From the IMG/VR virus record IMGVR_UViG_3300010149_006012, positions 1 to 21,159 of that record: DNA of 21,159 nt; one strand, written 5' to 3'. Each line of letters opens with the position of its first letter. The first letter of the stretch is position 1. A program made the position numbers and the translations under genes. The notes under the pieces were generated by a model that saw only the letters and a list, made by a program, of their open reading frames with translations, did not search any database and had not been told where the DNA came from. Positions 1,120-18,138 of the stretch are shown here, piece by piece. The stretch comes from a virus.

Positions 1120-2034
1120 GTGATTCAATTAGGTTACGCTTGTATTAATATGGAACTTAGAGAAAAAGGTATATTTAATTCTCGCACAATGAGAAAAAAA
1201 ACCTTTTTAGAAAAAGGCTTACCATATGCTTCTTCTCTTGTTCTACAAAATGTAAAAGACATGCTTCCTATATTTAACTGGAATTATAAAAATAATGTTA
1301 AAGTATTTCGCATATCGTCTGAACTTACACCATGGGCTTCTGAATATGAATTGGAAGATTTACCGGACTACGAAGAAATTTGTAGGTACCTTAAAATGGC
1401 CGGTGATTATTCTAAAGTAACTGGTCTTCGATTGTCATTTCACCCAGGACAATTTAATTGCTTGGCATCAGAAAAAGACTATGTTATAGAAAACTGTATC
1501 AAAGACTTAAATATTCATGGAAAGATATTTGACTTAATGGGCATGTCAAGAGATCATAATGCTAAAATCAACATACACTTAGGTTCAACGTGTGGAAACA
1601 ATCTTTCACTTGCTGCAGATAATTTTAATAGGAATTTTCAAAGATTGTCAGATAGTGCTAAATCAAGGCTTACTGTAGAAAACGATGATAAAGCTTCAAT
1701 GTTTTCGTCTAAGTTTTTATACGAAAACGTCTATAAAATATCAGGTACACCTATTGTTTTTGACTCTCATCATTTCGAACTTGGCCCTCAAGATTCAAGT
1801 TATGACGAAGCGTTTCATATGGCATATGAAACTTGGGGTGATGTTGTTCCTACATGTCATCATTCAAATGGCAAAAAAGAACACGAGGATTCTTCTATAA
1901 GATCAGCAGCTGCACATTCAAATTTTTACTATAAACCTTTTAATAATTGTGGTAAAAGAGTAGACGTTATGCTTGAAGCTAAAATGAAAGAAAAAGCACT
2001 TAAGAAATATATAGAAGATTTTGTAGAACTGTAG
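1120..2034 (+). CDS. uvsE: UV damage endonuclease (UvdE/UvsE)
   Basis: Cuts DNA 5' to UV photoproducts and some abasic sites, starting an alternative excision repair; TIM-barrel metalloenzyme. Start chosen at GTG 1120, because AAGGAGG lies just upstream and the protein then begins (M)IQLGYACIN, the usual family N-terminus. An in-frame GTG at 1066 would run through a promoter. The 304 residues are normal length. Expected ligand motifs are present: HPGQF (108-112), IHLG (152-155), VENDD (186-190), FDSHH (214-218), CHHSNG (246-251) and MLEAKMKEKA (284-293). The position two residues before the metal-binding His near 247, which is a carboxylated Lys in the Thermus enzyme, appears to be Thr here. 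It heads the block leading into the purine genes, 57 bases upstream of the next start. Confidence 0.95.
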   Translation: MIQLGYACINMELREKGIFNSRTMRKKTFLEKGLPYASSLVLQNVKDMLPIFNWNYKNNVKVFRISSELTPWASEYELEDLPDYEEICRYLKMAGDYSKVTGLRLSFHPGQFNCLASEKDYVIENCIKDLNIHGKIFDLMGMSRDHNAKINIHLGSTCGNNLSLAADNFNRNFQRLSDSAKSRLTVENDDKASMFSSKFLYENVYKISGTPIVFDSHHFELGPQDSSYDEAFHMAYETWGDVVPTCHHSNGKKEHEDSSIRSAAAHSNFYYKPFNNCGKRVDVMLEAKMKEKALKKYIEDFVEL

Positions 2035-2091: not shown

Positions 2092-3156
2092 ATGATAACA
2101 ATTTTAGATAAAGAGGCACTTAGCTTTGATGACTTGATACTCATGCCTCTATACTCTGACATCAAGTCTCGAAAAGAAATAAATACTTCAGTAACATTAA
2201 AAAACTCTGATGGATCTGAACTTAAATTTCAAACACCAATAATTAGTTCTCCAATGTCTACAATAACTGAAGCTTATATGTGTAATGCAATTAATAGCTG
2301 TGGAGGATTAGGTATTATTCATAGATACAATACAATAGATCATCAAGCAAAACTTCTATCTTACGTTAATTCAGACATTTACAAGGCAGCTGCTGTTGGT
2401 GCTAGTGGTGATTATAAAGAAAGATTAGATAGATTAGTTGAAACAGGACTAAAAATTGTATGCATTGATGTAGCACATGGTGATCATATCCTTGTTAAAG
2501 AAGCAGTTGAGCACATTAAACAATATCATCCACATTTATTTATTATTGCAGGTAATATTGCAGGAGCTGGTGCATACCAAAGATTGTCTGAATGGGGTGT
2601 GGATGCTATTAGAACTAGTGTGGGGAGTGGATCAATCTGCACAACACGTATTCAGACAGGTCATGGCATGCCAACTTTAAATGCACTAATTCAATGTACT
2701 GAAAGAAGAGAAGAGCTTAAAAAATTAGGAAAACCCACAGCATATATTATTGCTGATGGTGGTATTAAAAATACGGGTGATATTGTTAAATGTTTAGCAA
2801 TAGGTGCTGATCTGGTTATGCTTGGGTCAATGTTAAGTGGTACAAGAGAAACGCCTGGTAAAGTTATTATTGACAAAGAAACTGGAAAAAAAGTTAAAAG
2901 ATATAATGGTATGGCATCAAAAGCAGCACAAAAAGCATGGAAAGGAAGTTATTCTTCGATTGAAGGTGTGACTTCTTATGTACAATACAAGGGAACTGTC
3001 AATAAAGTAATAACAGAGATAACCTCGAACATTAGAAGTGGTATGTCATATAGCAGTGCAAGATGCTTAAGTGAACTAAGAAGTAATGCACTATTCATGA
3101 GGCAAACAATTAACTCTCACACAGAAGGTTTGCCACACATTTATAACAGAAAGTAG
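2092..3156 (+). CDS. IMP dehydrogenase/GMP reductase family enzyme, CBS-less; GMP reductase-like flap
   Basis: TIM-barrel purine nucleotide oxidoreductase acting either GMP to IMP (reductase) or IMP to XMP (dehydrogenase). The 354 residues match GMP reductases and leave no room for the CBS pair of typical IMP dehydrogenases. Seen: FDDLILMP near the N-terminus; the Cys loop GSGSICTTRIQTG (about 179-191); phosphate-site ADGGIKNTGDIV and VMLGSMLSGT. The flap between NGMAS and EGV is only about 16 residues and contains no Arg-Tyr dyad, which IMP dehydrogenases need for XMP hydrolysis; this favours GMP reductase. In contrast PIISSPMSTITE, the TRETPG end of the barrel and the EGLPH tail look IMPDH-like. 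Family is certain, direction is not. Five bases separate it from purA. The Shine-Dalgarno is weak (cagga). Confidence 0.9.
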   Translation: MITILDKEALSFDDLILMPLYSDIKSRKEINTSVTLKNSDGSELKFQTPIISSPMSTITEAYMCNAINSCGGLGIIHRYNTIDHQAKLLSYVNSDIYKAAAVGASGDYKERLDRLVETGLKIVCIDVAHGDHILVKEAVEHIKQYHPHLFIIAGNIAGAGAYQRLSEWGVDAIRTSVGSGSICTTRIQTGHGMPTLNALIQCTERREELKKLGKPTAYIIADGGIKNTGDIVKCLAIGADLVMLGSMLSGTRETPGKVIIDKETGKKVKRYNGMASKAAQKAWKGSYSSIEGVTSYVQYKGTVNKVITEITSNIRSGMSYSSARCLSELRSNALFMRQTINSHTEGLPHIYNRK

Positions 3157-3161
3157 AAATA

Positions 3162-4352
3162 ATGCCAAGTAAATTAGTAATAGGTCTCCAACATGGAGAC
3201 GAAGGTAAAGGAAGAATTGTAGACGACTTATGCCAAAATTGGGCAGAATTAGTAGTAAGATTCCAAGGCGGTGGAAATGCTGGGCATACTGTTTATGATA
3301 GTGAAGGAAAAAAACATGTGACACATATTTTACCGGTAGGCATTTTAACTGAAGGTGTCACTAGTTATATAGCAAAGGGTTGTGTTTTAAATCCTATTGA
3401 TCTTGCTAAAGAAATAAAAGAGTTTAATGTTACGCCAGATAAATTAAAAATTAGTGGCTTGACACCTATTATTGAACCAACACATATTTGGTTAGATAAA
3501 TTAAAATATCAGGGTAAGATAGGTACTACTGCCAAAGGAATTGGTCCAGCATACTCTTCTTTTTATGCTCGAGATTCAATTCTTTTCAAGGATTTTGTAA
3601 ATAACTTTGATGCTTCTTACTTAAAAATTATAGAGAATATTGAAAATTTTCTAAACAACAATAAAGAAATTAAGCACGAAGATGAATTCTATTTTGAATT
3701 GTTAGATGATTATACAGTTAAGACTAGAGAATTGTTAGAATGTATTGATATAGTAAAACCATTTCTGTCAGATAATGAAAGCTTTATTCAAGATAGCTAT
3801 GCAAAAAATATAAACATTCTTTTAGAAGGTGCACAAGGTTGGGGATTAAATGTAATGTCAGATGAATATCCAAACGTTACTTCATCTATGCCAACAATAG
3901 GAGGCGCAATTAACTCAACTGGACTTAGTCATAAACAAATAGATGAAGTAATCGGTGTTTCTAAAATTTACAAAACAAAAGTAGGAAAAGGCAACTTCCC
4001 AAGTTTGTGTAACAATGACAGTGAAAAGATATTAGCAGAAATAGGCAAAGAATACGGTGCAACTACAGGTAGAAGAAGGAAATGTGGTTGGCTAGATATG
4101 AATGAACTCAAGCAAGCATGCATGGAAAATGGTGTAGATCATATTGTTATTACAAAAACTGATGTTTTTGCTCACTTAAAAGAACAAAACATCTATCTTT
4201 GTGACGATATCAGGCCAATTATGAGAATTAATGAACCTAGCACAAAAGATCCTTCTTTTGTTTCTTTATTAGAATTTATTAAAGAAGAAACAAGTATAAA
4301 GACAATTTCGTTTACAACAGGCCCAAATAGAGGTGAGATCATATGGGGATAA
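3162..4352 (+). CDS. purA: Adenylosuccinate synthetase
   Basis: Joins IMP and aspartate using GTP to make adenylosuccinate, the first step from IMP to AMP. Clear motifs: QHGDEGKGR with catalytic Asp13; GGGNAGHT with the partner His43; TTAKGIGPAYS (the usual STGRGIGPAY loop); GATTGRRRKCGWLD (about 299-312), the Asp/IMP-binding loop; and TKTDVF, the guanine-binding segment. The 396 residues are some 30 shorter than typical bacterial PurA. The Asp13 is important: viral PurZ enzymes that make 2-aminoadenine replace it, so this should be an ordinary AMP-pathway enzyme. It sits between the IMPDH/GMPR-family gene (5-base gap) and purB (3-base gap), clearly one transcription unit. ATG 3162 has only a poor Shine-Dalgarno, so translation may be coupled to the upstream gene. 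Confidence 0.95.
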   Translation: MPSKLVIGLQHGDEGKGRIVDDLCQNWAELVVRFQGGGNAGHTVYDSEGKKHVTHILPVGILTEGVTSYIAKGCVLNPIDLAKEIKEFNVTPDKLKISGLTPIIEPTHIWLDKLKYQGKIGTTAKGIGPAYSSFYARDSILFKDFVNNFDASYLKIIENIENFLNNNKEIKHEDEFYFELLDDYTVKTRELLECIDIVKPFLSDNESFIQDSYAKNINILLEGAQGWGLNVMSDEYPNVTSSMPTIGGAINSTGLSHKQIDEVIGVSKIYKTKVGKGNFPSLCNNDSEKILAEIGKEYGATTGRRRKCGWLDMNELKQACMENGVDHIVITKTDVFAHLKEQNIYLCDDIRPIMRINEPSTKDPSFVSLLEFIKEETSIKTISFTTGPNRGEIIWG

Positions 4353-4355
4353 ATA

Positions 4356-5510
4356 ATGATACCTAGATATAAAGTAAAAGAAGTCCATGATATATGGTCA
4401 ACAGATAATAAATTAAACACATGGTTAAAAGTAGAACTAGCCCATCTTGACTCATTAGCAAGTAGTATTACACATAAAACTATCACGCAAGAAGAGTTAG
4501 ATACAATTAAGAGTCATGTTAAAGTTGATAAGCAAAGATGGAAAGAAATAGAGGAAACAACAAGGCATGATGTGCAAGCATTTGTCCAGATGTTAGAAGA
4601 AAATATTCCTGACAATAGTGGGAGATGGATACATTATGGATTAACATCTTCAGATATTTTAGACACATCTTTAGTTTTAATGTGTAGAGAATCATTGCAG
4701 ATTATTGTTGACTATACTTCAGGAACTTGCTATCATTTAACTAAATTAATGAAGCAAGAGTCTGCTAATACTGAAATACTTGCAAGAACACATGGCAAGG
4801 CTGCAGAAGTTCAAACTTATTATAATGTTTATAAAAGATGGATTGTTGCCTTAAGAAGAGGATTGGACTCTTTAGTAGAAGCAAAGAAGAAGTTAAACTT
4901 TGGTAAAATGTCTGGACCTGTTGGAAATCATACTACAAACTCAGTATCAATAGAATCTACTGCTTTAAGATCTCTAGGTCTTTATCCGACAACATGCTCA
5001 CAAATAATCCCAAGAGATATGTTTTTAGATTATTTTTATGCAATATTGAAAGTTATGCTAGCTGTAGAAAAAATTGCATATGATATTAGAATATACTCTA
5101 TGGATGGGATCAATGAAATGTCTGAACCTTTCAGGAAGGGACAAAAAGGTAGCTCTGCTATGCCTCATAAAAAAAATCCTATCTTGACTGAAAACATTTG
5201 TGGTTTGTCTCGTCTTTATAAAAGTTATATGCACACAGCAATAGAAAATTGTCAAACTCTATTAGAAAGAGATATAAGTCATTCTTGTTCTGAGAGAATT
5301 ATATTTAAGGATGCAGCACATATTGCTTGTTATACTCTAAGCAAGTTAACATATATTTTTAAAGACATGAATATCAATACAGACTTTGCACAAAAAAATG
5401 TAGATTCATTTAAAAATAAAGTATCTTCACAAAGTAATATGAATGAGTTAATAAATCAAGGTATCTCTCGAACAGATGCACATAATATTGCACAGCAAGA
5501 AGATATTTAA
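4356..5510 (+). CDS. purB: Adenylosuccinate lyase, C-terminally shortened
   Basis: Fumarase/aspartase-superfamily lyase that splits adenylosuccinate into AMP and fumarate. Seen: ETTRHDVQAF (about 67-76), HYGLTSSDILDTS (the His-bearing region with the TSSD motif), ARTHGKAAEVQTY (about 143-155) and the superfamily signature GSSAMPHKKNP (about 264-274) with the catalytic Ser loop; LERDISHSCSER follows. The protein ends at residue 384, shortly after the segment equivalent to TREEAYD..Q in Bacillus PurB (431 residues), so roughly 45-50 residues of the C-terminal helical domain are missing. The main catalytic motifs lie before that point. A GGGGAT Shine-Dalgarno lies inside the end of purA. Together with PurA it completes IMP to AMP. 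Confidence 0.94.
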   Translation: MIPRYKVKEVHDIWSTDNKLNTWLKVELAHLDSLASSITHKTITQEELDTIKSHVKVDKQRWKEIEETTRHDVQAFVQMLEENIPDNSGRWIHYGLTSSDILDTSLVLMCRESLQIIVDYTSGTCYHLTKLMKQESANTEILARTHGKAAEVQTYYNVYKRWIVALRRGLDSLVEAKKKLNFGKMSGPVGNHTTNSVSIESTALRSLGLYPTTCSQIIPRDMFLDYFYAILKVMLAVEKIAYDIRIYSMDGINEMSEPFRKGQKGSSAMPHKKNPILTENICGLSRLYKSYMHTAIENCQTLLERDISHSCSERIIFKDAAHIACYTLSKLTYIFKDMNINTDFAQKNVDSFKNKVSSQSNMNELINQGISRTDAHNIAQQEDI

Positions 5511-5533: not shown

Positions 5534-6043
5534 ATGAGAAGTAAAATTGATGAAAGAGCTATAGCTAGAAAGTTTTTAACTAACATGAACGAAAGCATGA
5601 TTGGAATGATGCCACTCGGCATGCAAGATTCTAGCTGCGAAGATGACGATATGTATAGCATGCATAGCGAAGAATATAGCGAAGCACACGGAGAATTAAA
5701 AACAGATCAATATGGCGTTGTTCCTAAAGATGAGTTATACAGTCACTTTGATTTAAACAGTGATGGAACTGTAACCCCAGAAGAATATGCTGAACATATA
5801 GACTTTCATTGTGCACATCCTGAAACTTTGGATCACTATAGAACACATAGAAGTCAATCATGTGAAACAGTTCCTTGTCAATCATCTTATGATTCTGTGT
5901 CACAACACTTTATGGGGAAGCCTGATTCTTTAATGACATTTGTTCAAGATACTTGTGACGAAACAGGATCAACATGTCATACCTCTACAATGCAAGGAAT
6001 GTTTGACGTTTTAAAGTCTTTAAAGGATGCAGGTATTATTTAG
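5534..6043 (+). CDS. EF-hand protein, Met/His/Cys-rich, unknown role
   Basis: 169 residues with one textbook EF-hand loop, DLNSDGTVTPEE at 73-84: Asp1, Asn3, Asp5, Gly6, Val8 and Glu12 are all in place, so calcium binding is likely. The region before it (30-55) is acidic and Met/Ser-rich; the region after it has several His and Cys (for example CAHPETLDHYRTHRS and paired Cys near 109-114 and 140-148). There is no signal peptide or membrane segment. It has a good Shine-Dalgarno (AAAGGGA) and follows purB by 23 bases, so it is probably the last gene of the purine transcription unit. It might be structural or a metal-binding factor; nothing in the sequence decides. Confidence 0.85.
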   Translation: MRSKIDERAIARKFLTNMNESMIGMMPLGMQDSSCEDDDMYSMHSEEYSEAHGELKTDQYGVVPKDELYSHFDLNSDGTVTPEEYAEHIDFHCAHPETLDHYRTHRSQSCETVPCQSSYDSVSQHFMGKPDSLMTFVQDTCDETGSTCHTSTMQGMFDVLKSLKDAGII

Positions 6044-6130: not shown

Positions 6131-6331
6131 ATGTTAAAAATAGGTCAAAAAGCTACACATTTTATGCAGTCACACAAGGTCGGAACAATTGTGCAAATTA
6201 TAACAGAAAACGCACACAACTATATGACAATTGGTGGAACAACGCAAAGTGATGTTTTTGTAGTTATCAAGTACAGTGAAAACGATATCCAAAAATTTAA
6301 ATCAGGAGACGTGATAAGAATTTATGATTAA
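6131..6331 (+). CDS. Small SH3/KOW-like barrel protein, unknown function
   Basis: 66 residues, strong Shine-Dalgarno (AAAGGAGAAA). Alternating hydrophobic strands (VGTIVQI, VFVVIKY, GDVIRIYD) with a GTIV turn suggest a small SH3- or KOW-like beta barrel, similar in style to the proteins at 7420 and 17570. No catalytic residues are evident. Its last 8 bases overlap the start of the transglycosylase gene, so the two are probably translated together. Confidence 0.8.
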   Translation: MLKIGQKATHFMQSHKVGTIVQIITENAHNYMTIGGTTQSDVFVVIKYSENDIQKFKSGDVIRIYD

Positions 6332-13763: not shown

Positions 13764-13773
13764 TTGACGAAAC
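13764..13773 (+). promoter_or_regulatory. TTGACGAAAC element upstream of the giant gene
   Basis: TTGACGAAAC starts 21 bases before ATG 13785 and is followed by N3-AGG before the start. The identical ten bases occur at 17937, 22 bases before another ATG. TTG 13764 is in frame but lacks a Shine-Dalgarno, so I read this as a regulatory element rather than a start codon. Confidence 0.45.
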
Positions 13774-13784
13774 TAGAGGCAAGC

Positions 13785-16700
13785 ATGGCAAAGAACAGCA
13801 AGGCAAGTAAAAGTAATAAAAAAAAATATACCTTAAAAGAAGTATATAAAAGTCTTTTAGTAGAGGCAATAATTACTCCTGCAGAGTTTCTAGAAAGAAT
13901 AGTAAATATTGTAGAAAAAAAACCTAAAATTAGTGGGAAATACGGACCAATTATTAAAAAATTACTCGAAAAAACAAAAGAAACAAAATTACTTGCTTTT
14001 AAAAGTAAAGAAAACAAAAGGGATAGAAAACTTGCAGAATTTGAGATTATTAAAAGTCTTCAAGCTATAAAAGGTATAGACGGTAATCCAATTAATCTAA
14101 AAAGAATGAGACCTCTTTATGACAGTCTCGCAAAATATTTAGAAACAAGTGTTGATGCAAACATTGACGATTGTTTAAAGTCAGCTGATTATTATATGAA
14201 AGAGTTTTATGTCAGTGCAGATAAAGAAGACGTTGACTTAATTACAAAAGGTAAGTTTAATTTTGCAACAGTTTTTAAAAGAACTAATTTTTATCAGTCT
14301 GTAGATGAATATAAATCTCAGCTTTCTGGGATGGATACATCAGGTGCAGAATACTTTGATGTATATGAAAGTCCAGATAAAAAAATAAAAATTGTATATC
14401 CTCTCTCGTCTTATGCTTTTAATCTTTATATTAAAAATAACAACTCAGGTCAGACTTTAACATGGTGCACTCAAAGTGAGTCTACATGGTTTAGTTATAA
14501 CAAAAAACAATATGTAATGATAATGACAGTTGATTCTGACAATAAAGAAGAAAGATTAATAAGTCTTAAGGTAAGTAAAGAAGGCACAATTGATAAATAC
14601 GAAACGTGTGACGCTGACAATCAACATATGAATGATAGGCTTGATAGCTTATTAAGTCTAAATCTTGTAAATAGTGTAAAATCAGCTACGCAATCTTTAA
14701 ATGAAAAAATTAAAACAAGCGAAATAACACTAGTTGACAAGAGAGACGAAAGCAAAGAAGTCATTAAAGGTTTAGTAGAATTAAATAGATACTCAGACAT
14801 TATTGATATTTTAAATTATTCGATTGTTGACTATGCTGAAGGTATTGAAGGTCTTGAAGGTGAACATAATTTTGAAATTGTAATAAATACTTTAAATTCT
14901 GAAGCACGTGCTAACACACAAAAAAAAGAAAGTATATTAAATGCCTATACAGATTTTTTAACATCTTCTTATATAGATAACAATATTGATTTAAGATTAG
15001 ACAGTTATCTGCAGTTTTTTGAAACTAAATCGGCTATGGATTTATTTTATAAAAGATTAATAGAGAAATCTTTAAATCATAGATCACATGAAAAATACTT
15101 TATAACTTTAATAGATGATATAAGTAGTGAGAACCAATATATCAAAACAGTTAATATTGAAGATCATGCTGCTTTTTTTGGTGATCCTAAAGAAGTATTA
15201 GAAAATTGTCTTTTAAATTCTCTAAATACAAATAATATTCTATTTTTCAAAAGAATAATCAAATCTTCTCTGGAAATCGAGTACATCAAAAAAAATATAC
15301 TGACTGAAAACTTTAATGGTATATTAAAAACAAAAGGGTTTTCAAGACTTGTTGATGCTAGAAAAGAAAATATTATCAATACAGAAAATGAAGAAGATAA
15401 ATCAGAATTATACTTGCAAGAAACAATTTTTCAAGAACAAAACAAAGAAATAGTTTCTCAAATACTACAGGAAAAACAAATAGATATTAAAAATACTGAC
15501 ATGCGTAATTTTATTTGTTTAATTGAAAGATTTAATAAAACACGTGACGAAAAACATTTAACAAAAGAAAATATTGATCGACATCTAATTTCTCAAAATA
15601 GAGAAGATTATAATAACGCTATTGAAAAAATAACTTCTGATTTAAGTTTTTTTAATAACATGTTTAGTCTTTCAAAACAAGATGATTTCGATATTGAAAT
15701 TTTTAAATTATTTATTAACGCAAAAGATTCTCAAAATTTAATTAACTATAATGAAAGAAGTTACATTATATTTGATCATATAATAAATCAGAGAAGCGAA
15801 AATGAACTATATCGTGCTATTTCAAGTTCTAATCCTGATCGCATACTTGACTTAATTGAAATTGTCATGCAAAATTTTAAAAAGTCGAAAGAAGAAGTAT
15901 CAATAAAGCTAGCCAATACTATGTTAAAAGGATTGAAGATTTTAATACCTGTCATATTACGAAATCAAAAAGTTAGTGAAAGATATACGTCGAATGAAGA
16001 AAACTTTAAACAAATTATAAATATTGCTGACGCAAATAATGATTACTTTGATTTGTTTCTTCATGTTATAGACTTTCTCCCTATAGATAAATATCCTTCA
16101 GATTATGCTCAGTCTCTTGCAAAAGACTTGTTTGACCAAAAAATGTTTAAAGCGTCAATTAAGTTTTTAAAATCAAATGACGTTGATTATCTTTTAACAA
16201 AAGAATCTATTCTTAGATTAGGTTATCATCTTCTTAAAAATAATAAAATTGCTGATACAACTATTATAGACAAATTATTTAAAGTATACTTTAAAACTCT
16301 GTCTTCTTACGAACGTATTGATGTATCTTTTTGTTTTGATTTTTTAGATATTATTATGTTATACTTTAAAGACAAACAAACGTTATCTACTTTTATTAAA
16401 GATAATTTTGAAATTACTGTTTATAACAAAGAATTATTTTTTAAGATTATAGAAGAATTTAATAAATTAAAAATAGCTTTTAACAAAGAAAAGCTAGGTA
16501 AATTTATGAGTGATGATAATTTTAAAAGCTTGGACAAAAATACAAGACTGTCTTTTTATGAAAATCTCATTACTATATCATCTGACGGTCATGCTAATCA
16601 CCTAGACTTAATTGATGATATAGATAAAGTAAAGTCAATCTTAGCTTATAACCTAAAAGATATAAGTAAAAGTTCAGGAGGTCTTAAGCGAGAAACTACA

Positions 16701-16889
16701 AACTTTGTTGATGATTTAGAAGATATTATTAACTTTATATCTCGCTTGAGAAGTGCAAGTAGAAAAAAACTTTCACAAGCTATTCCGCAAGCAAAAACAA
16801 TAAAAAGACTTTGGCAGCAGCAACCTCATGATCATGATGACTATTTTGAATCTTTGTTAAGACAATATTTAAAATTAATGATTGATTAA
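13785..16889 (+). CDS. Giant protein with capsid-targeting-like N-terminus and WCT motif; candidate internal virion protein
   Basis: About 1034 residues from ATG 13785 (AGAGG Shine-Dalgarno; an in-frame TTG at 13764 would add 7 residues). Residues 1-14 are basic and low-complexity; about 15-27 read YTLKEVYKSLLVE, followed by A28, closely resembling the N-terminus of the minus-strand protein at 1040 and the T4 capsid-targeting/prohead protease pattern L-x-E|A. Around 215-260 is a TLTWCTQSESTW...YNKKQYVMIM segment; a WCT motif followed by a Y-containing strand recurs in uncharacterised phage proteins, with no firm name. The remainder is long alpha-helical, repeat-like sequence rich in Lys, Asn, Asp and Ile. 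No membrane or signal segment. Likely late and virion-associated; an ejected effector is an inference. Confidence 0.88.
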   Translation: MAKNSKASKSNKKKYTLKEVYKSLLVEAIITPAEFLERIVNIVEKKPKISGKYGPIIKKLLEKTKETKLLAFKSKENKRDRKLAEFEIIKSLQAIKGIDGNPINLKRMRPLYDSLAKYLETSVDANIDDCLKSADYYMKEFYVSADKEDVDLITKGKFNFATVFKRTNFYQSVDEYKSQLSGMDTSGAEYFDVYESPDKKIKIVYPLSSYAFNLYIKNNNSGQTLTWCTQSESTWFSYNKKQYVMIMTVDSDNKEERLISLKVSKEGTIDKYETCDADNQHMNDRLDSLLSLNLVNSVKSATQSLNEKIKTSEITLVDKRDESKEVIKGLVELNRYSDIIDILNYSIVDYAEGIEGLEGEHNFEIVINTLNSEARANTQKKESILNAYTDFLTSSYIDNNIDLRLDSYLQFFETKSAMDLFYKRLIEKSLNHRSHEKYFITLIDDISSENQYIKTVNIEDHAAFFGDPKEVLENCLLNSLNTNNILFFKRIIKSSLEIEYIKKNILTENFNGILKTKGFSRLVDARKENIINTENEEDKSELYLQETIFQEQNKEIVSQILQEKQIDIKNTDMRNFICLIERFNKTRDEKHLTKENIDRHLISQNREDYNNAIEKITSDLSFFNNMFSLSKQDDFDIEIFKLFINAKDSQNLINYNERSYIIFDHIINQRSENELYRAISSSNPDRILDLIEIVMQNFKKSKEEVSIKLANTMLKGLKILIPVILRNQKVSERYTSNEENFKQIINIADANNDYFDLFLHVIDFLPIDKYPSDYAQSLAKDLFDQKMFKASIKFLKSNDVDYLLTKESILRLGYHLLKNNKIADTTIIDKLFKVYFKTLSSYERIDVSFCFDFLDIIMLYFKDKQTLSTFIKDNFEITVYNKELFFKIIEEFNKLKIAFNKEKLGKFMSDDNFKSLDKNTRLSFYENLITISSDGHANHLDLIDDIDKVKSILAYNLKDISKSSGGLKRETTNFVDDLEDIINFISRLRSASRKKLSQAIPQAKTIKRLWQQQPHDHDDYFESLLRQYLKLMID

Positions 16890-16931: not shown

Positions 16932-17573
16932 ATGAAGAATATATTTTTTTTACTTTTATTAACAAACTTTGCTTATGCACAAGGATTTGAGTGTGACAAT
17001 AATTTTAGTGATTGCGGAACTCCAGAGCAAAGTGGAGGAGGTGGAGGAGGTAAAGGTTCTGTATTGATAGCAAACACAGACTTAGGAGATTCATATCAAC
17101 ATGCTGATGACTATGACGATGATGGAATAGAAGATCCTTCAGATAATTGCATGAGAGATTATAACCCAGACCAGTTGGACTCTGATGCAGATACGATAGG
17201 TAACATGTGTGATAATTGCATAGGAACATGGAACTTGTATCAGGATGATTCAGACGGTGATGGTTATGGTGATGCATGTGACGAAGATATTGATGGTGAC
17301 GGTATTTTAAATTCTGCTGATGATTGTCCATATCAATGGGGAAATTCATATTGTTTAGAACAAGAAAAACAGCATCAATTTAAGATGACTGAAGATCAAA
17401 TATATGAAATGCCAGAATTAGAAAGAAAATTAGATGAAGATATAAACACACCTAAAGACACAATTTCAAATCAAGGTTGTGCATCTTTAGATGTTAGTCA
17501 AACAAAAAACTTTTTTCTATTAGTAGGTATATCTATTTTTTTTGCAACAATTATAAATCTAAAGAGAAAATGA
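16932..17573 (+). CDS. Secreted calcium-binding protein with thrombospondin type 3 repeats and C-terminal anchor
   Basis: 213 residues. Signal peptide 1-16 (hydrophobic FFLLLLTNF, AYA|Q cleavage). Glycine run at 35-40. Thrombospondin type 3-like calcium repeats at about 58-132: DDYDDDGIEDPSDNC, DQLDSDADTIGNMCDNC, DDSDGDGYGDACDEDIDGDG, with alternating Asp and paired Cys. Then a charged linker, GC at 182-183, a hydrophobic helix (about 193-210) and the tail KRK. Cys + helix + basic end resembles MYXO-CTERM/GlyGly-CTERM surface-sorting tails. In a phage, a host-surface protein of this kind could modify or mask a receptor. It directly follows the giant gene and overlaps the next gene by 4 bases. 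Confidence 0.88.
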   Translation: MKNIFFLLLLTNFAYAQGFECDNNFSDCGTPEQSGGGGGGKGSVLIANTDLGDSYQHADDYDDDGIEDPSDNCMRDYNPDQLDSDADTIGNMCDNCIGTWNLYQDDSDGDGYGDACDEDIDGDGILNSADDCPYQWGNSYCLEQEKQHQFKMTEDQIYEMPELERKLDEDINTPKDTISNQGCASLDVSQTKNFFLLVGISIFFATIINLKRK

Positions 17574-17902
17574 ACATAAACGATATTGTATATATTAAAT
17601 CTTGTAAGGCTGTAATTAAAAATAAACCTTATAAGATTGTTTATATAAATAAAACACATGCTATAATAACAGATATAGATAATATTAGAATGCAAAAAAT
17701 ATCAATAGACTTTTTAACTATTGATACAAATAAAACTTATTCATCTGAATCTATTAAGAAAGGTGATTTAGTAAAGTGTATAGATAACTTTGCTGTAAAA
17801 GAAGGTATAGTGTTAGAAACTTATAACACATTTTTACTTGTCTTAGTAGGTAACAAAAAAAGAAAGATAACTAAAAATAAAGTTATTCTTTTAAATACAT
17901 AA
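17570..17902 (+). CDS. Tandem SH3/KOW-like small protein, unknown function
   Basis: 110 residues; ATG overlaps the preceding stop (ATGA), so translation is coupled to the thrombospondin-repeat gene. Two similar halves can be seen: NDIVYIKSCKAVIKNKPYKIV (about 4-24) and GDLVKCIDNFAVKEGIVLET (about 65-84), each starting with [NG]D[IL]V and continuing with Lys-rich strands, typical of small beta-barrel repeats such as KOW or SH3. The NTFLLVLVG stretch matches NTFFVLVG in the protein at 7420. No signal peptide, so unlike its neighbour it stays in the cytoplasm. Confidence 0.78.
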   Translation: MNINDIVYIKSCKAVIKNKPYKIVYINKTHAIITDIDNIRMQKISIDFLTIDTNKTYSSESIKKGDLVKCIDNFAVKEGIVLETYNTFLLVLVGNKKRKITKNKVILLNT

Positions 17903-17936
17903 AACATTTAATAAAACAATAAGAAAAAGTTGCGGC

Positions 17937-17946
17937 TTGACGAAAC
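17937..17946 (+). promoter_or_regulatory. TTGACGAAAC element upstream of a small gene
   Basis: Second exact copy of the ten-base element, 22 bases before ATG 17959 and again followed by N3-AGG. Here an in-frame reading from TTG hits TAG after four codons, so it cannot be a start codon. Confidence 0.45.
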
Positions 17947-17958
17947 GATAGGTTATAC

Positions 17959-18138
17959 ATGCAAGGAACAAACGAAATAGGTGTTATAAAGAATTGGAAC
18001 ATGTCTTTAAATAATTCTGTGTGCTTAATATTAGAAGAAAAAAAATACTCTAAAGATATAAGATCACACTTTTGTAAAGTTTTAATTGAAAAAAGTATTT
18101 ATACAATACCTAGAAAAAATATAGAATTACTTAGCTAA
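17959..18138 (+). CDS. Small protein, 59 residues, unknown
   Basis: ATG 17959 to TAA 18138, with an AGG ribosome site. Contains a hydrophobic strand (SVCLILEE) and a basic second half; it ends IPRKNIELLS. Fills an otherwise empty 230-base gap, with codon use like its neighbours. The shared upstream element with the giant gene suggests similar timing. No family recognised. Confidence 0.6.
   Translation: MQGTNEIGVIKNWNMSLNNSVCLILEEKKYSKDIRSHFCKVLIEKSIYTIPRKNIELLS

Follow-up and report, generated by a model that had tools for sequence, protein, structure and literature searches.

The window analysed here is the whole 21,159 bp of the IMG/VR record IMGVR_UViG_3300010149_006012, which is classed as linear, a class that often denotes a fragment. 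Three adjacent genes in it encode an enzyme of the IMP dehydrogenase/GMP reductase (IMPDH/GMPR) family, an adenylosuccinate synthetase (PurA) and an adenylosuccinate lyase (PurB). The best reading of this module, judged from sequence and in our view a probable one, is a path from guanosine monophosphate (GMP) via inosine monophosphate (IMP) and adenylosuccinate to adenosine monophosphate (AMP). All three genes start with ATG, lie on the plus strand and are separated by 5 and 3 nucleotides only, and no terminator-like site was found between them. The tight unit of these three families proposed in the first-pass annotation of the window is thus borne out by the gaps and by the domain matches, and a large tailed phage presumably co-expresses the three genes as one transcription unit. 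In the proposed route, the first enzyme would act as a GMP reductase and convert GMP and NADPH to IMP and ammonia, PurA would form adenylosuccinate from IMP, aspartate and guanosine triphosphate (GTP), and PurB would release AMP and fumarate. AMP could then be converted to ATP and, through ribonucleotide reductase, to deoxyadenosine triphosphate (dATP) for phage DNA. The net reaction is GMP + NADPH + GTP + aspartate -> AMP + NADP+ + NH3 + GDP + Pi + fumarate. As PurA also consumes GTP, both ends of the path would drain guanine nucleotides.

The first enzyme matches the IMPDH/GMPR domain PF00478 with 306.9 bits (E 2e-91; gathering score 25.6). IMPDH and GMPR have in common a barrel, a catalytic cysteine and the enzyme-bound xanthosine monophosphate intermediate E-XMP*, which IMPDH hydrolyses by means of a mobile flap carrying the dyad Arg418-Tyr419, whereas GMPR has a shortened flap lacking the dyad and requires Cys186, Thr188 and Glu289 (PMC2525682). 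The viral protein was aligned with E. coli GuaB and GuaC, human GMPR1 and GMPR2, staphylococcal GuaC and further IMPDHs including two IMPDH structures. Its Cys183, Thr185 and Glu291 are invariant in 29 of 29 sequences from loci with all three genes. In the larger set of 83 short-flap sequences (the window and 82 relatives) the Arg-Tyr dyad is absent throughout, the cysteine, threonine and glutamate are always retained, and GMAS invariably replaces the GMGS of IMPDHs, which corresponds to Gly415 to Ala in human IMPDH2 numbering. The GMPR of Trypanosoma brucei is IMPDH-like in sequence, reduces GMP and cannot oxidise IMP, and the same exchange of Gly415 is one of two differences proposed for its lack of IMPDH activity (PMC4701174). 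Among the matches from a bacterial collection only two contigs of metagenome-assembled genomes (MAGs), L086 and L087, had the short flap, and these are perhaps viral.

That the first enzyme works from GMP to IMP, with AMP as the product of the module, is best supported by a second, independent assembly of the three steps with a true GuaC. A scan with PurB (31-33% identity) led to a 312 kb contig, L139, in which the order is PurB-PurA-GMPR with overlaps of a few bases. Its reductase is of the GuaC type and scores above two curated GMP reductase cut-offs, and its PurA and PurB also exceed curated cut-offs. Scans with the proteins of this contig yielded two further loci, L162 (PurB-GuaC-PurA) and L163 (PurB-PurA-GuaC), in both of which the reductase is above the PRK05096 cut-off and PurA and PurB are above a curated one. 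The reductases of the three contigs, found in two gene orders unlike that of the window, reach 524-536 bits against a cut-off of 397. In the PurA tree this second lineage groups with bacterial PurA (support 98/98), and the clade of the window is separate (100/99). As far as sequence can tell, the three consecutive steps have been brought together in two phage lineages out of unlike components, since both the GMPR family and the origin of PurA differ.

Two side observations were made on such loci. An amidohydrolase of the cytosine deaminase type (PRK06886) is encoded directly upstream of PurB or PurA (L139:5052-6008, L243:4708-5673), in L139 with an overlap of 8 bases with purB, and is possibly a fourth member of the second-lineage cluster. 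In L243 and L244 (7704-7880) only the last 59 codons of GuaC are left beside an intact PurA, which indicates that the reductase has decayed there.

The module of the window itself recurs in related viral contigs. An IMG/VR scan with the first protein returned seven contigs with 63-68% identity, all with the same gene block, and together with the PurB scan the order GMPR-PurA-PurB was found in 26 other contigs, that is, in every contig with room to show it; the remaining close PurB matches begin at or near a contig edge. This recurrence argues that the module is not a product of chance or an assembly accident. As near-identical copies are included (L004/L005 and L120/L121), the distinct phages are somewhat fewer than the contigs. 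Identity to the window ranges from 63 to 69% for GMPR, 48 to 77% for PurA and 47 to 80% for PurB, and nonsynonymous divergence (dN) of 0.15-0.41 stands against synonymous divergence (dS) of 1.3-2.1, the latter near saturation. The spacing between the GMPR and PurA genes is -1 to 6 nucleotides in all contigs but two, L002 and L119, where a 218-220 amino acid open reading frame (ORF) without assigned function is inserted. PurA and PurB are as close as in the window in some relatives and often 84-209 nucleotides apart, and many of these gaps are filled by a small ORF resembling the SH3/KOW-type small proteins of the window. The UvsE gene precedes the GMPR gene in most relatives. Among the contigs with the three genes are two longer relatives of 115 kb and 239 kb, whose other products include DNA polymerases, UvsX and a head-tail adaptor; genes for both ribonucleotide reductase subunits, a dUTPase and GroEL are also present in the former, and one for PhoH in the latter. 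A search for Gp23 in the relatives gave no match, a result without weight since the control gave none either. All loci of this first lineage have a GC content of 26-36%.

PurA and PurB retain their active-site residues. In PurA Asp13, Lys16, His42, Gln225, Arg304, Arg306, Asp334 and Gly387 are invariant in 31 of 31 sequences and Lys332 in 30, one relative having arginine. The protein is above the Pfam cut-off and below the NCBIfam equivalog cut-off (309 versus 402 bits), hence divergent, and is shortened ahead of a C-terminal TTGP motif which is itself present. In PurB His71, His146, Ser267, Lys272 and the other catalytic residues are invariant in 32 of 32 sequences, with the signature SSAMPHKKNP, and the shortfall of its TIGR00928 score from the cut-off (312.5 versus 326.2 bits) is due to about 50 missing C-terminal residues.

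A PurA-like enzyme next to PurB might also point to 2-aminoadenine (Z-DNA) synthesis, in which PurZ acts on deoxyguanosine monophosphate and PurB finishes the product dZMP. Phages of the PurZ type such as Archimedes and Hiyaa do pair PurZ with PurB, and the PHROG match of the window PurA is named '2-aminooxy adenylosuccinate synthetase'. All 147 phage PurZ and PurZ0 sequences, however, have serine at the position of Asp13 (PMC12884076), which is aspartate in all 31 PurA sequences from the three-gene loci, and the PurA tree sets the protein of the window apart from PurZ0. An identity as PurZ was rejected on account of Asp13, of the tree and of the profile scores (115 bits for PurZ NF038379, cut-off 300, versus 309 for PurA), and a Z-DNA pathway is very improbable here.

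The function of the first enzyme needs more careful weighing. If it were an IMPDH, the three genes would form a set at the IMP branch point, the IMPDH leading to XMP and GMP and PurA with PurB leading to AMP, so that both purines would be raised from host IMP. Several findings lean this way and weigh against a reductase. The whole-sequence hidden Markov model (HMM) search favours IMPDH, the best score being 254.9 bits for TIGR01302 compared to 203 for the best GMPR model. The top matches to PDB sequences are IMPDHs, and a fold search with the AlphaFold model of the protein (pLDDT 87, an IMPDH/GMPR barrel) returned IMPDH barrels for all top matches (TM-score about 0.85). A tree groups the viral clade with IMPDH and the Legionella structure 3r2g, apart from the classical GMPRs (93/89, without an outgroup, so the root is unplaced). 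An enzyme without Arg418 could still slowly hydrolyse E-XMP* by a Thr/Glu path (PMC2525682). The presence of the three genes in 27 contigs of one lineage also means that their conserved order represents few independent events. A CBS domain was not found in the Pfam search of the first enzyme, and active IMPDHs lacking this domain exist.

The TIGR01302 score is far from its cut-off of 481.5 bits, and the scores for the classical GuaC families are likewise short of theirs (189 of 492 bits for TIGR01305, 201 of 397 for PRK05096 and 203 of 344 for PRK05458), so that the enzyme is below every curated GMPR or IMPDH cut-off. The fold search cannot separate the two activities, because all its top matches are IMPDH barrels and the flap, the distinguishing element, is modelled at low confidence. 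The structure 3r2g was deposited as an IMPDH and also has no flap dyad. The IMPDH reading is disfavoured above all by the lack of the dyad in 83 of 83 sequences, as removal of Arg418 cuts hydrolysis about 1000-fold (PMC2525682), and further by the alanine in place of Gly415 as in T. brucei GMPR, by the absence of a GMP synthetase gene beside the first enzyme and by the true GuaC at the same pathway position in the second lineage. We regard it as unlikely. More probably, the protein is a GMP reductase that stands outside the classical GuaC families, in a lineage without the flap that is as yet uncharacterised. The GMP reductase considered in the first-pass annotation is supported by the active site (no dyad, Cys183, Thr185, Glu291 and GMAS) and by the parallel with the GuaC-containing clusters.

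The purpose of such a path is a separate question. That the phage is rich in A and T, as had been remarked earlier, is confirmed by a GC content of 29.8% across the window, and its DNA demands A and G in a ratio of 2.36:1. This demand, together with the position of the gene near dUTPase and the DnaE polymerase in a wider viral clade, fits a supply of dATP as the physiological aim without proving it. The rationale from base composition is only plausible, as the loci of the second lineage have 28.6-40.5% GC and those of the wider clade mostly 37-45%. Most purine of a cell is found in RNA, which has no shortage of G, and the GC content of the host genome would for this reason be a weak test either way. 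The same reactions might instead benefit the phage by reducing its guanine nucleotides, be it GTP, ppGpp or defence signals built on guanine, or by providing AMP and ATP for energy. In favour of this are the drain on guanine nucleotides by GMPR as well as PurA, the occurrence of GMPR genes and second-lineage clusters also in phages of 37-45% GC, and the many phages with GMPR alone; the vicinity of dUTPase and a replicative polymerase in the wider clade and the 26-36% GC of all first-lineage loci speak against it, and we think it improbable. What the sequences suggest is that some phages rebalance the purines of the infected cell from G to A. A more far-reaching proposal, to which we give a little less than an even chance, is that phages have assembled a dedicated G-to-A pathway at least twice with non-orthologous GMP reductases, that the enzyme of the window represents a third, largely viral and flap-less GMPR family, and that guanine nucleotides, with the breakdown of host RNA as one possible source, are converted to adenine for a genome of 70% A+T.

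GMPR-fold genes extend well beyond these clusters. Genes of the GuaC type are common in viruses, with at least 593 loci in the viral contig scan, and nearly all of the 80 loci kept from these have no PurA or PurB nearby. In a wide viral clade (L008-L080) the flap-less GMPR lies near a DnaE polymerase and dUTPase, often with GroEL some kb downstream. PurA occurs at a distance in L014, L019, L031 and the records of L021 and L047; the PurA counts in viral contigs are lower bounds, as the peptide patterns of the PurA scans were too specific and returned few loci. In named phages that have a GMPR-fold gene on its own, the loci have 26-49% GC and are presumably lower in GC than the hosts, an uncontrolled comparison and a lead only. 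A GuaC-type GMP reductase in a 227 kb viral contig (L245:1051-2535) has an in-frame insert of about 142 amino acids with a Hint/intein signature beside the catalytic cysteine. In an Opitutia MAG (L088) an ORF for an IMPDH with the flap dyad adjoins a PurA-family ORF, a bacterial pair at the IMP branch point.

The features of the module and its neighbours are collected in the table. Other genes of the window are phage-like and include a lytic transglycosylase, a DnaB/RecA-like ATPase, an AAA/VWA pair, an ATP-dependent ligase, Hsp20 and DUF3310. No tRNA genes were found in the 21 kb window or in the 115 kb relative, and the 239 kb relative has seven. Small proteins of SH3/KOW-type appearance are scattered across the window (17570-18138, 6131-6331), a putative secreted protein has thrombospondin type 3 (calcium-binding) repeats (16932-17573), and the largest gene (13764-16889, 1041 amino acids) has no Pfam match.

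Table. Features of the purine module and adjacent genes, in positions of the window.
Feature	Position	Strand	Basis
UvsE UV-damage endonuclease; usual upstream neighbour, outside the pathway	1129..2034	+	TIGR00629 169.8 bits, above cut-off
Short-flap IMPDH/GMPR-fold enzyme, probable GMP reductase, 354 aa, without CBS domain	2092..3156	+	PF00478, active-site residues, AlphaFold model
Catalytic Cys loop ICTTR (C183, T185)	2635..2649	+	Aligned to E. coli GuaC C186/T188
Truncated flap segment YNGMASKAAQKAWKGSYSSIEG, without Arg-Tyr dyad, Gly to Ala at A275, E291 retained	2902..2967	+	Alignment
PurA, adenylosuccinate synthetase, 396 aa, shortened near C-terminus	3162..4352	+	PF00709 319.6 bits (E 4e-95)
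PurA Asp13 codon (Ser in PurZ/PurZ0), GDEGKG motif	3198..3200	+	PMC12884076 for Asp versus Ser
PurB, adenylosuccinate lyase, 384 aa, C-terminally short	4356..5510	+	TIGR00928 312.5 bits; Lyase_1 (Pfam) 111 bits
Protein without assigned function, weak EF-hand match; after PurB in nearly all relatives	5534..6043	+	

Nucleotide genes of phages are usually read as genes for de novo synthesis or DNA modification, and a self-contained path for one-way interconversion of purines would amount to a separate phage strategy. It also makes it testable whether phages that are more AT-rich than the RNA pool of the cell actively shift its A/G ratio. Each part of the module is a known family in phages. The three genes in combination, the repeated assembly of such a set and the lineage of flap-less reductases seem to be undescribed in the literature searched, in which no phage GMPR-PurA-PurB module was found. 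Many public entries of this uncharacterised, largely viral lineage labelled IMP dehydrogenase or dehydrogenase may be GMP reductases.

Among phages, lone GMPR-fold enzymes are encoded by XacN1, RAS14, Cr30, phage G (gp120), the crAss phage cr108_1 and a pelagimyophage (PMC7029224), with no PurA or PurB beside the reductase in the annotated regions examined. Gordonia phage Archimedes and Streptomyces phage Hiyaa resemble the window in having a PurA-family enzyme with PurB, but make 2-aminoadenine with a catalytic serine, and no GMP reductase was seen in their examined regions. De novo purine sets such as L145 and L147 have PurB beside PurF/PurL/PurQ/PurE/PurN-like genes, in L145 also with a GuaC-type enzyme, and no PurA adjacent to PurB. 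Neighbours of this kind were not seen beside the module, nor were PurF/PurL/PurQ/PurE-type genes among the annotated ORFs, which make up part of those in the window, and this agrees with the earlier remark that its logic differs from that of the usual de novo genes. The contigs L139, L162 and L163 likewise have the genes for a GMP reductase, PurA and PurB packed closely together, and differ in the GuaC-type reductase above curated cut-off, the gene orders and the bacterial grouping of PurA. Outside phages, T. brucei GMPR (PMC4701174) and mycobacterial GuaB1 are GMP reductases that also lie closer to IMPDH than to classical GMPR, the former with the same alanine at position 415, but both have a CBS domain, unlike the phage enzyme, a putative GMP reductase. 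The host route from GMP to AMP by E. coli GuaC, PurA and PurB runs through the reactions proposed for the module, all three and in identical succession, and its PurA and PurB are homologous to those of the phage with all checked catalytic residues kept. To our knowledge the bacterial guaC, purA and purB genes are not clustered. E. coli GuaC comes from another branch of the family (about 30% identity), whereas the phage module is a single unit headed by an IMPDH-like enzyme without the flap.

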